From Maribacter sp. ACAM166 (GTDB lineage: Bacteria; Bacteroidota; Bacteroidia; Flavobacteriales; Flavobacteriaceae): a stretch of 64,000 nt of DNA. The DNA is taken from NCBI RefSeq assembly GCF_005771495.1, contig NZ_VAUW01000005.1, positions 124,001 to 188,000 on the forward strand, given 5' to 3'. Numbering within the stretch: position 1 is the first letter of the stretch; every line of letters starts with the position of its first letter. The notes under the pieces were generated by a model. That model saw only the letters and a program-made list of their open reading frames with translations. It was not told the DNA's origin and did no database searches. Position numbers and translations under genes: made by a program. Positions 35,902-49,652 of this stretch are shown here, piece after piece.

Positions 35902-37299
35902 TTAAATGTCCTCCGCGATTTCTAATGCCTTAGTCAAAGCGCCCAATTTATTATAAGTTTCCTGTAATTCGTTTTCTGGATTAGAAGCAGCTACTATTCC
36001 CGCTCCTGCCTGATAGTGTAGTTTATGGTTTTTACTAAGAAAAGTTCGTATCATAATGGCATGATTAAAGTTGCCGTTGAAATCCATGAAACCGATTGCA
36101 CCACCGTAATAACCCCTACTTGTTTTCTCGTATTTTTCAATTAATTGCATGGCCATGTGCTTTGGTGCACCACTTAAGGTACCTGCTGGAAATGTGTCTG
36201 CTACCACTTTCATTGTAGATCTATCACTTTTTTTCATTCCGGTAACTTTCGATACCAAATGTATAACGTGTGAGAAAAACTGTACTTCCCGGTAATTTTC
36301 TACCTGTACCACATTACCATTTCTGCTTAGGTCATTTCGTGCCAAATCTACCAGCATCACATGCTCACTGTTTTCTTTATCATCACTTTTTAATTCTTTG
36401 GCCAGTTCAGCATCCTGTTCGTCATTCCCAGTTCTTTTAAAGGTGCCTGCTATAGGGTGTATTTCTGCTTTTCCATCACTGACAATTAATTGTGCCTCTG
36501 GTGAACTTCCAAAGATTTTAAAATCGCCATAATCAAAATAGAATAAATAGGGAGAAGGGTTTACCGAACGTAAAGCCCTATATACATTGAATTCATCACC
36601 TTTAAACCCTTGAGAAAACCTTCGGCTTAAAACCAGTTGAAAAACATCGCCACGTTGACAGTGTTTTTTAGCTAAGGCAACTTGTTCTCTGTATTCCTCT
36701 TCCTCTAAATTAGATTGTGGTTCACCTTCTATCTTGAAATTATAGGTAGCAAAATTTTTAATATTTAAAAGTTGCTCTAATTCTGGTATATTATTTTCAG
36801 TTTCATAGCAATGAGCGAAAAGATAGGCCTCATTTTTAAAATGATTGATGGCAATAATATTTTGGTAGACCGCATAGTAGATATCCGGTATATGGATAGA
36901 GTCCTTTTTTACGGTTAAATTAACATCTTCAAAATACCGTACGGCATCATAGGCCATATAGCCAAAAAGGCCGTTGTTGATGAACTTAAAATCATTACTA
37001 TCGGCCTTAAATGCTTTACTGAAAGCATCTATAATTTCTACAACATTTGTGTTTTCATCAATTGAAAATTCTTCGATAGCCCCATCTGGGAAATTTTTAG
37101 TTACCGTTTCGTTTTCAATTTTTATAGAAGCTATAGGATTGCAGCAGATATAGGAGAAACTATTATCATTGGCGTGATAGTCACTACTCTCCAATAAAAT
37201 ACTATTTGGAAAACGGTCTCTAATTTTCAAATAGACACTTACCGGAGTTAGAGTGTCCGCAAGAATTTTTTTATGATATGTTTTAAATTGATAGGCCAT
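35902..37299 (-). CDS. trpE: Anthranilate synthase component I
   Basis: This 465-residue subunit converts chorismate to anthranilate. The chorismate-binding domain is intact: GDVFQLVLSRRF, GSSPEAQLIV, HPIAGTFKRTGND, DLARNDLSRNG, FPAGTLSGAPKHMAM, and GAIGFMDFNGNFNHAIMIRT. The N-terminal LLESSD element binds tryptophan in feedback-sensitive enzymes, so it is probably inhibited by tryptophan. It is the first structural gene of the operon, 76 nt downstream of a Trp-rich leader peptide with an attenuator. Confidence 0.97.
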   Translation of the reverse strand: MAYQFKTYHKKILADTLTPVSVYLKIRDRFPNSILLESSDYHANDNSFSYICCNPIASIKIENETVTKNFPDGAIEEFSIDENTNVVEIIDAFSKAFKADSNDFKFINNGLFGYMAYDAVRYFEDVNLTVKKDSIHIPDIYYAVYQNIIAINHFKNEAYLFAHCYETENNIPELEQLLNIKNFATYNFKIEGEPQSNLEEEEYREQVALAKKHCQRGDVFQLVLSRRFSQGFKGDEFNVYRALRSVNPSPYLFYFDYGDFKIFGSSPEAQLIVSDGKAEIHPIAGTFKRTGNDEQDAELAKELKSDDKENSEHVMLVDLARNDLSRNGNVVQVENYREVQFFSHVIHLVSKVTGMKKSDRSTMKVVADTFPAGTLSGAPKHMAMQLIEKYEKTSRGYYGGAIGFMDFNGNFNHAIMIRTFLSKNHKLHYQAGAGIVAASNPENELQETYNKLGALTKALEIAEDI

Positions 37300-37305
37300 A
37301 GGTAC

Positions 37306-37379
37306 TTTTATAAAATAAGGAAGGCTTGTCGTGATGACAAGCCTTTATATAGTTTTACTACAATGATGCTTAGCTCACG
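37306..37379 (-). promoter_or_regulatory. trp attenuator: terminator and competing antiterminator
   Basis: On the minus strand, AAGGCTTGTC (37345-37336) pairs with GACAAGCCTT (37330-37321) around the loop ATCAC. A U-rich tail (CCTTATTTTATA) follows, ahead of trpE. An alternative pairing joins CGTG and AAGC (37379-37376, 37371-37368), just after the leader peptide's stop, with GCTT and CACG (37342-37339, 37333-37330), destroying the terminator. Stalling at the Trp codons would leave this 5' arm free; reading to the stop would cover it. The pairing was found by eye. Confidence 0.75.
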
Positions 37380-37431
37380 TTGTTGTTCGTAAGTTGTTCC
37401 ACCACCAAGTATTTACAATTAAATTGTTCAT
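37375..37431 (-). CDS. trpL: trp operon leader peptide
   Basis: This 18-residue reading frame, MNNLIVNTWWWNNLRTTT, contains three consecutive Trp codons (TGGTGGTGG, 37407-37399). It begins within a few bases of the predicted transcription start from the promoter at 37439-37468, so the message is almost leaderless. It stops 75 nt before trpE, and its stop codon lies inside the antiterminator 5' arm. This is the layout of ribosome-mediated attenuation. Confidence 0.82.
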   Translation of the reverse strand: MNNLIVNTWWWNNLRTTT

Positions 37432-37438
37432 TTCGCAT

Positions 37439-37468
37439 CAAATATAGAAAGGAATTTTAAACCTACAA
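37439..37468 (-). promoter_or_regulatory. Promoter of the trp operon
   Basis: On the minus strand TTG (37468-37466), 19 nt, then TATATTTG (37446-37439): an exact Bacteroidota-type promoter directly in front of the leader peptide ATG. Confidence 0.75.
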
Positions 37469-37490
37469 ACTTTGTTTATGTGAAAAATAA

Positions 37491-47788: not shown

Positions 47789-47862
47789 GCCGATGTAGCT
47801 CAGCTGGCTAGAGCAGCTGATTTGTAATCAGCAGGTCGTGGGTTCGAGTCCCTCTATCGGCT
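47789..47862 (+). tRNA. tRNA-Thr (TGT)
   Basis: The 74-nt gene folds into a full cloverleaf: acceptor GCCGATG with TATCGGC, anticodon arm gctga-TTTGTAA-tcagc with anticodon TGT, and T arm with GTTCGAGTC. The discriminator is T; CCA is not encoded. Confidence 0.93.
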
Positions 47863-47888
47863 CTTAAGTTCTTAAAATATTAGTTTGA

Positions 47889-47970
<82 letters not shown>

Positions 47971-48019
47971 CTAAACTTTTAAGTTAGGAGTTTTAAGTTG
48001 AAATATTGTAATTTTATAA

Positions 48020-48092
48020 GCGGGAGTAGCTCAGTTGGTAGAGCGTCAGCCTTCCAAGCTGAATGTCGCCGGTTCGAACCCGGTCTCCCGCT
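48020..48092 (+). tRNA. tRNA-Gly (TCC)
   Basis: The 73-nt gene has acceptor GCGGGAG with CTCCCGC, anticodon loop CTTCCAA (anticodon TCC), T loop TTCGAAC. The discriminator is T. Confidence 0.93.
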
Positions 48093-48111
48093 CTATAAAT
48101 TTGACAGAAAT

Positions 48112-48137
48112 GTCATTCCTGCGAAGGCAGGAATCTG
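48112..48137. repeat. REP-like palindrome between tRNA genes
   Basis: The sequence GTCATTCCTGCGAAGGCAGG plus AATC forms a hairpin (attcctgc / gcaggaat with loop GAAG). It resembles the palindromic GTCATTCC(C/T)GCG repeats scattered in many bacterial genomes. It separates tRNA-Gly and tRNA-Thr(GGT). Confidence 0.6.
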
Positions 48138-48166
48138 TCTTATTGAAGATGGATTCAACACTTTAC

Positions 48167-48238
48167 GCCGGTGTAGCTCAGGGGTAGAGCGTTTCCTTGG
48201 TAAGGAAGAGGTCACGAGTTCAATTCTCGTCATTGGCT
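48167..48238 (+). tRNA. tRNA-Thr (GGT)
   Basis: The 72-nt gene has acceptor GCCGGTG with CATTGGC (two G-U pairs), anticodon loop TTGGTAA (anticodon GGT) and T loop TTCAATT. The discriminator is T. It complements the TGT isoacceptor of the same cluster. Confidence 0.92.
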
Positions 48239-48249
48239 CAATTAAGGTA

Positions 48250-48257
48250 TAAATTTG
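48250..48257 (+). promoter_or_regulatory. Possible secondary promoter element of tuf
   Basis: TAAATTTG matches TAnnTTTG and lies 36 nt before tuf. The only upstream TTG (48233-48235) is 14 nt away, shorter than usual, so tuf may depend mainly on readthrough from the tRNAs. Confidence 0.35.
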
Positions 48258-48293
48258 TACACTAATATAAACTAAGATTAAAATTCATTAAAC

Positions 48294-49481
48294 ATGGCAA
48301 AGGAAAAATTCGACCGTTCCAAACCGCACTTAAATATAGGTACTATTGGACACGTTGATCACGGTAAAACTACATTAACTGCTGCTATTACAACTGTTTT
48401 GGCAAATGCAGGTCTTTCTGAAATGAGAAGTTTCGATTCTATCGATAACGCTCCAGAAGAAAAGGAAAGAGGTATTACTATTAACACTTCACACGTAGAG
48501 TATTCTACTGCTAATCGTCACTACGCTCACGTTGACTGTCCTGGTCACGCGGATTACGTAAAGAACATGGTTACAGGTGCTGCTCAAATGGATGGTGCTA
48601 TTTTGGTTGTTGCCGCTACAGATGGTCCAATGCCACAAACTCGTGAGCATATCCTTTTAGGTCGCCAAGTTGGTATTCCTAGAATGGTTGTATTCATGAA
48701 TAAAGTGGATATGGTTGATGATGAGGAATTAATCGAGCTTGTTGAAATGGAAATAAGAGAATTGCTTTCTTTCTATGAGTACGATGGTGATAATGGTCCT
48801 GTAATTGCTGGTTCTGCATTAGGTGCATTGAACGGTGAGCAAAAATGGGTTGATACGGTTATGGAATTGATGGAAGCTGTAGATAGTTGGATCGAGCTAC
48901 CTGTAAGAGCTGTTGAGAAGCCTTTCTTAATGCCTGTTGAAGATGTATTTACAATTACTGGTCGTGGAACTGTTGCGACAGGGCGTATAGAGGCTGGTGT
49001 TGCTAATACTGGTGATGCAGTTGAGATTATTGGTATGGGTGCTGAAAAATTGAACTCTACAGTTACTGGGGTTGAGATGTTCCGTAAGATATTAGATAGA
49101 GGTGAGGCTGGAGATAATGTAGGTATCTTGTTGAGAGGTATTGAAAAAGCTCAAATTAGCCGTGGTATGGTAATTTGTAAGCCAGGTTCTGTTAAGCCGC
49201 ATGCTAAATTTGAAGCAGAGGTTTACGTATTGAAAAAAGAAGAAGGTGGGCGTCACACGCCATTTCATAATAACTATCGTCCACAGTTTTATGTAAGAAC
49301 AACGGATGTAACTGGTAATATTTCACTTCCATCTGGAGTTGAAATGGTTATGCCTGGTGATAACCTTACAATTACTGTTGAATTGATTCAGCCAATCGCA
49401 TTAAGTGTTGGTTTGCGTTTCGCTATCCGTGAAGGTGGTAGAACGGTAGGTGCTGGTCAAGTAACAAAGATTATAGATTAA
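48294..49481 (+). CDS. tuf: Elongation factor Tu
   Basis: This 395-residue GTPase delivers aminoacyl-tRNA to the ribosome. G1 GHVDHGKT is at residues 19-26; [12 protein letters not shown] (switch I), [12 protein letters not shown] (G3) and NKVDMVDD (G4) follow. Domains 2 and 3 are complete, with the kirromycin-side [10 protein letters not shown] and the end [10 protein letters not shown]. It lies between tRNA-Thr and tRNA-Trp, as in other Flavobacteria, and codon use is strongly biased as for a highly expressed gene. Confidence 0.99.
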
Positions 49482-49505
49482 TTCAATCTAAATAATATTG
49501 TACAT

Positions 49506-49534
49506 AAGGGTGTCCTGCTCAAGCGGTACACCTT
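49506..49534 (+). terminator. Weak terminator-like hairpin after tuf
   Basis: AAGGGTGT (49506-49513) pairs with ACACCTT (49528-49534) around a 14-nt loop, with only a short T-run. It may be a processing or partial termination site between tuf and tRNA-Trp. Confidence 0.4.
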
Positions 49535-49579
49535 TACATGCAAATAATAGAATAGGTGGTTTTAAATCCATCAATTCAT

Positions 49580-49652
49580 ACGGGTGTAGCTCAGTTGGTA
49601 GAGCACTGGTCTCCAAAACCAGGTGTCGGGAGTTCGAGTCTCTCCTCCCGTG
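49580..49652 (+). tRNA. tRNA-Trp (CCA)
   Basis: The 73-nt gene has acceptor ACGGGTG with CTCCCGT (one T-T mismatch at pair 6), anticodon arm CTGGT-CTCCAAA-ACCAG with anticodon CCA, T loop TTCGAGT, and discriminator G as expected for Trp. Confidence 0.92.

Follow-up and report, generated by a model that had tools for sequence, protein, structure and literature searches.

The analyzed DNA (the window, 64,000 nucleotides in full) comes from a marine flavobacterium near Maribacter arcticus, to which its best TrpE segment is 96% identical, and carries on the minus strand a full trp operon, trpEGDCFBA (37299-30692), behind a short leader. The operon is headed by trpE; trpG, D, C and F, which follow, were assigned by Pfam, while trpB and trpA were named from their translations without a family search. 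Read along the minus strand, a promoter is followed by an 18-codon ORF, a pairing arm over the stop codon of this ORF, a 10-bp terminator and trpE, with the terminator stem ending 21 nt ahead of the trpE ATG (Table 1). The first-pass annotation had described a consensus promoter, an 18-codon leader with three consecutive Trp codons and a 10-bp terminator directly before trpE, and all of these are found, the promoter being of the Bacteroidota type. It had also described a competing hairpin whose 5' arm starts inside the stop codon; the hairpin stands, but the arm starts two bases before the stop codon.

Table 1. Features of the trp leader region, with window coordinates.
Feature	Coordinates	Strand	Description and basis
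-33 element	37466..37469	-	TTTG; sequence, consensus TTTG/TANNTTTG (PMC6847099)
-7 box	37439..37446	-	TATATTTG; sequence; predicted transcription start about 37434, taken from the box
Leader ORF	37375..37431	-	MNNLIVNTWWWNNLRTTT, 18 codons + TGA; ATG 37431, stop TGA 37377-37375
Three consecutive Trp codons	37399..37407	-	TGGTGGTGG; sequence; WWW in most relatives
Outer protector hairpin	37356..37411	-	UACUUGGUGGUG paired with CAUCAUUGUAGUA, enclosing arms 1 and 2; RF01692-like hairpin
Arm 1	37388..37393	-	CUUACG, 5' arm of inner protector hairpin; folds, alignment
Arm 2	37368..37379	-	CGUGAGCUAAGC, spanning the stop codon; alternative partners are arm 1 and the terminator arm with its loop
Intrinsic terminator hairpin	37321..37345	-	AAGGCUUGUC-AUCAC-GACAAGCCUU; 10 bp, 5-nt loop
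Arm 3	37330..37342	-	terminator 5' arm and loop captured by arm 2; pairing tests
trpE	35902..37299	-	heads trpEGDCFBA

The terminator is followed by the tail CCTTATTTTA, a rather weak U-run (CCUUAUUUUA). Between 37200 and 37600, three terminator-like sites were found on both strands, as against 0.2 expected, two of the three being this hairpin read on either strand. We considered and rejected a repeated generic terminator, as a single location in the genome carries the exact stem pattern. The fold of the leader RNA, which the first-pass annotation had proposed to check, is more stable than all 200 dinucleotide shuffles (z -4.2).

The leader peptide in related genomes

Our analysis of relatives considered 210 regions upstream of trpE in the Flavobacteriaceae, made up of 80 named loci and 130 regions from a sample of 149 genomes, nearly all of different genera and including the genome of the window. 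In the other genomes of this sample, TrpE was absent or partial or the region was left out, as for G015, G057 and G122, which have near full-length matches. L082, being the same sequence as the window, was dropped. Genomes may overlap between the named set and the sample, and identical leaders were counted once. For the class Bacteroidia, 119 genomes were searched and a close TrpE was found in 37, the family's own included; 34 of these lie outside the family. The regions used for the class are thus restricted to genomes in which a close TrpE is present and represent 32 of the 34 (G484, where the contig ends, and G442 were left out).

A short ORF containing two adjacent Trp codons (WW-ORF) is present in 206 of the 210 Flavobacteriaceae regions. 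There are 197 distinct leaders, 182 of them with three consecutive Trp codons, and three start with TTG (L124, L141) or GTG (L151). When 130 regions were shuffled, WW appeared in 20 and WWW in none of 2600 cases, where it should be considered that shuffled regions were read with ATG starts only and real leaders also with TTG or GTG. L018 has no WW-ORF by the rule used; its WWW lies 554 nt and its terminator 491 nt upstream, behind an inserted gene. The region of L101 begins at a contig end within the leader, that of L177 is too short to tell, and in L210 no WW leader was seen upstream of trpE. Outside the family, a WW-ORF precedes trpE in 21 of the 32 regions and is missing from the remaining 11; behind most of these WW-ORFs lies a terminator, whose letters differ from those of the family; L276 and L268 were left out of this count, and L271 entered it via a longer ORF near trpE, though its likely leader, with WW, lies 1383 nt before the gene. 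The sequence between this leader and trpE resembles trpB, as read from the letters, and suggests, together with the distance, another operon order. Thus the Trp codons, as well as the hairpins with their compensating changes described below, are conserved in relatives, which the first-pass annotation had named as a check on its proposal.

In some relatives (L018, L031, L036, L046, L048, L055 and L061), an ORF resembling a GIY-YIG nuclease lies between the attenuator and trpE. It measures 94 aa in five of them, 71 aa in L018 and is a shorter open piece in L055; PF01541 was found in the ORF from L061, the sole one tested, and L177 seems to have such an ORF as well. Given its position, this ORF could be controlled by the attenuator.

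Promoter and start of the message

The two promoter elements are arranged as TTTG-19-TATATTTG, followed by 7 nt and the leader ATG. A generic sigma-70 scan does not report this promoter, the box being of the Bacteroidota type. In Flavobacterium, the box TAnnTTTG is given as occupying positions -12 to -5 (PMC9723704, PMC6847099), and with the 7-nt gap found here the predicted 5' UTR measures about 3 nt. As the first-pass annotation had proposed, the trp leader would thus be near-leaderless, in line with the published start-site geometry of Flavobacterium.

To be read with this prediction are the gaps between box and start codon in other leaders. Of the 197 distinct Flavobacteriaceae leaders, 106 have a gap of at most 8 nt and 69 a gap of exactly 5 nt, counts in which close relatives weigh heavily; for comparison, a gap of at most 8 nt is seen in 3 of the 47 mechanical ORFs of at least 150 aa in the window. 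In the one-per-genus sample of the family, 43 of 127 distinct leaders have a gap of 8 nt or less and 55 a gap of 13-22 nt, while in other Bacteroidia the short gap is seen in 5 of 21 leaders, with a strict box absent in 7. In published work, the leaderless share is 5.5% for F. psychrophilum (PMC9723704), and 87% of predicted transcripts have leaders longer than 10 nt in F. johnsoniae (PMC6847099). Taking the comparison with long ORFs and with the published shares together, near-leaderless starts are enriched among trp leaders, as judged from box positions, yet they are not universal.

The same numbers bear on an alternative that keeps attenuation but places the main transcription start farther upstream and treats the box next to the ATG as secondary or fortuitous. 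The start site is predicted here from the promoter box, and the 13-22-nt gaps in the one-per-genus sample, as well as the prevalence of longer leaders in F. johnsoniae, would agree with such an upstream start. Against it stand, however, the excess of boxes within 8 nt of the start over long ORFs and the leader of L151, which retains a gap of 5 nt despite its GTG start, and we regard it as unlikely. Returning to the near-leaderless start, we consider it possible, though somewhat short of an even prospect, that it represents a selected design over much of the Bacteroidia, with the box held 4-8 nt ahead of the start codon. If so, the ribosome would load as the leader RNA emerges and would be tightly coupled to the polymerase, in a phylum without Shine-Dalgarno initiation.

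Mutually exclusive pairings and ribosome positions

Arm 2, paired with arm 1, forms a protector hairpin and, paired with the terminator arm and loop, an antiterminator. In the Flavobacteriaceae, arm 2 mostly contains UCGUGA at or close to the stop codon, and UCACGA is the usual sequence in the terminator loop; of 193 sequences, 156 carry both, and the two tend to change together (e.g., in L201, L211, L264 and L265). A first test, in which the stop region alone was shuffled and paired with the whole terminator arm, was weak: 29 of 203 sequences reached 5 of 100 or better. A probable reason is that alternative pairings are available to AT-rich shuffled sequences. Stop-region shuffling was replaced by a comparison of each sequence's own pairing with re-dealt ones. 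For arm 2 and the terminator loop, the own pairing reached -14.5 vs -10.1 kcal/mol per sequence in 20 sequences from outside the family and -12.8 vs -11.5 kcal/mol in 48 Flavobacteriaceae with distinct loops, and in both sets none of 20000 re-deals was as good. The same was true of arm 1 and arm 2 (0 of 20000; 20 class and 188 Flavobacteriaceae sequences). It should be noted that these permutation tests ignore shared ancestry. By the rule used, L197, L205 and L258 have no terminator; the swap test also omitted L271 and L261. In its first form, with the loop cut short, this test ranked the own pairing among the best 10% in 9 of the 20 class sequences and in 3 of 21 non-canonical sequences of the Flavobacteriaceae; with three bases added on the 3' side of the loop, the numbers were 11 of 20 class sequences and 7 of 19 when one sequence per arm was kept, this second arm definition having been picked after the first result was known.

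An alignment of 74 leaders (less than 90% identical) showed changes on both sides at 2 of the 6 pairs of the inner protector, one of which is C-G in 54 leaders and U-A in 14. Broken rows in this alignment number 4 to 17 for the inner protector pairs and up to 22 for the outer hairpin, and the antiterminator is thus better supported than the outer hairpin of the protector. The re-dealing test shows co-evolution between the arm over the stop codon and the loop of the terminator.

The terminator itself is nearly invariant within the family, where GGC[CT]TGTC occurs in 175 of 193 terminators. These letters would be accounted for if the released leader RNA or peptide also acted in trans, by analogy with Sinorhizobium rnTrpL/peTrpL, where there is precedent for such action (PMC7298713). 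Arm 3, however, is constrained by two partners, arm 2 and the terminator 3' arm, and this by itself slows its divergence; the same letters are found in none of the 20 terminators outside the Flavobacteriaceae, so that we give an additional trans role little credence. The two-partner constraint may or may not be a sufficient cause of the near-invariance.

Arm 2 was sought in the stretch 12-60 nt behind the last Trp codon. Of 213 leaders, 183 have it starting 16-18 nt past that codon, and in 211 the stop codon is part of arm 2 or no more than 12 nt away. With this spacing, arm 2 can remain accessible while the ribosome occupies the Trp codons, and it is covered once the ribosome is at the stop codon. 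We also folded the RNA with a ribosome mask, assumed to reach 12 nt past the A-site codon. For the leader in the window, stalling on W gave the antiterminator at -15.0 kcal/mol, and a ribosome at the stop codon gave none. In the stalled state, at least 7 pairs into the terminator arm were formed in 193 of 193 Flavobacteriaceae (mean 13.0), compared with 60% of shuffles (mean 7.3), and in 19 of 20 class sequences (mean 11.6), compared with 67% of shuffles (mean 8.3). In the stop state, at least 7 pairs remained in 6 of 193, although this comes in part from less RNA remaining and the contrast is weak by itself. With the whole terminator present, at least 7 antiterminator pairs persist in the minimum-energy fold of 4 of 193 Flavobacteriaceae and 2 of 20 class sequences. 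As the antiterminator rarely survives the complete terminator, the switch must be kinetic and depend on folding order during transcription.

In the mechanism we propose, RNA polymerase would start about 3 nt ahead of the leader AUG, and a ribosome would load close to the 5' end independently of any Shine-Dalgarno sequence. A shortage of charged tRNA-Trp would make this ribosome stall on UGG-UGG-UGG, and its footprint would open the protector hairpin; the freed arm 2 could then capture the emerging terminator loop and 5' arm, letting the polymerase read on into trpE. With ample tryptophan, the ribosome would reach the stop codon and occupy arm 2, and the terminator would form. Without a ribosome, the protector is expected to form, and termination would again result. 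The locus combines a short ORF carrying a run of Trp codons, an intrinsic terminator (weak in its U-run) before the first structural gene, and a mutually exclusive antiterminator with compensating changes. At the sequence level, the anatomy, its conservation and the co-evolution of mutually exclusive pairings can be considered established. The classical attenuation geometry, claimed in the first-pass annotation, thus draws support from the conserved anatomy, the pairing tests and the fold states, and ribosome-mediated transcription attenuation of the trp operon is, with high confidence, the best explanation of the data.

Relation to known leaders

The E. coli trpL attenuator encodes a leader peptide with Trp codons and forms alternative protector, antiterminator and terminator pairings. 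A leader peptide with Trp codons and alternative pairings are thus common to both systems; the leader described here differs in its three adjacent Trp codons, its lack of a Shine-Dalgarno sequence, its predicted near-leaderless start and the location of its stop codon on arm 2. In Sinorhizobium meliloti, rnTrpL RNA begins with the trpL ATG, has consecutive Trp codons and takes part in trpE(G) attenuation (PMC7298713). Several consecutive Trp codons, and a leader RNA that is predicted here to start near the ATG, are shared with that system, from another phylum.

The closest named element is Bacteroid-trp (RF01692), published by Weinberg in 2010 (PMC2864571), which occupies the same place and has a tryptophan peptide leader, a similar protector hairpin and the terminator 5' arm. 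Its model matches 37453-37336, upstream of trpE, over its full length (1-131) with 47.1 bits (E 3.4e-4 genome-wide), 1.9 bits short of the gathering cut-off of 49 bits; of 1653 first-look candidates in the genome, 150 were scored, and among these it is the sole match at E <= 1. As 17 of 20 chosen relatives pass the cut-off at the same position (the misses being L002, the closest, L008 and L027), we regard the element as an ortholog of passing members and do not claim formal membership. In a sample of the phylum, RF01692 was found in 30 of 296 genomes (E <= 0.001, stricter filters), 28 of them Flavobacteriaceae, the window's own genome included. At gathering scores, the Rfam search of the window returned five tRNAs and nothing else, other matches being below their cut-offs; the tRNA genes are clustered at 47789-49652.

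This search also bears on direct binding of a protein or tRNA to the leader RNA, in a TRAP-like or T-box-like manner, with the ORF being incidental. The strong folding of the leader would suit such a scheme. No T-box or other Rfam leader reaches its cut-off here, however, and the conservation of a start codon, a run of Trp codons and a stop codon located on arm 2 speaks for a translated ORF, which makes direct binding highly improbable as compared with translation-dependent attenuation.

For F. psychrophilum, Bacteroid-trp upstream of the trp operon has been compared with E. coli attenuation (PMC6414381), and clues of leader-peptide attenuation ahead of amino-acid operons were reported (PMC9723704); in the passages considered, neither a pairing scheme nor codon evidence nor a start site is given for the trp leader. 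Titles and abstracts of the open-access literature yielded neither an antiterminator between arm and terminator loop nor a near-leaderless start for these leaders, both of which are predicted here. Considering RF01692 and the S. meliloti trpL that starts at its ATG, the element is real, correctly read and of a known kind. What our analysis contributes is a detailed scheme of the switch, including its arms and geometry; the model of the Rfam family concerned ends at the terminator 5' arm and draws neither terminator nor antiterminator. In other respects, classical biology is confirmed in a less studied phylum. The system would also offer a natural test of how ribosomes that do not use Shine-Dalgarno sequences initiate on near-leaderless RNA quickly enough for control of the polymerase.
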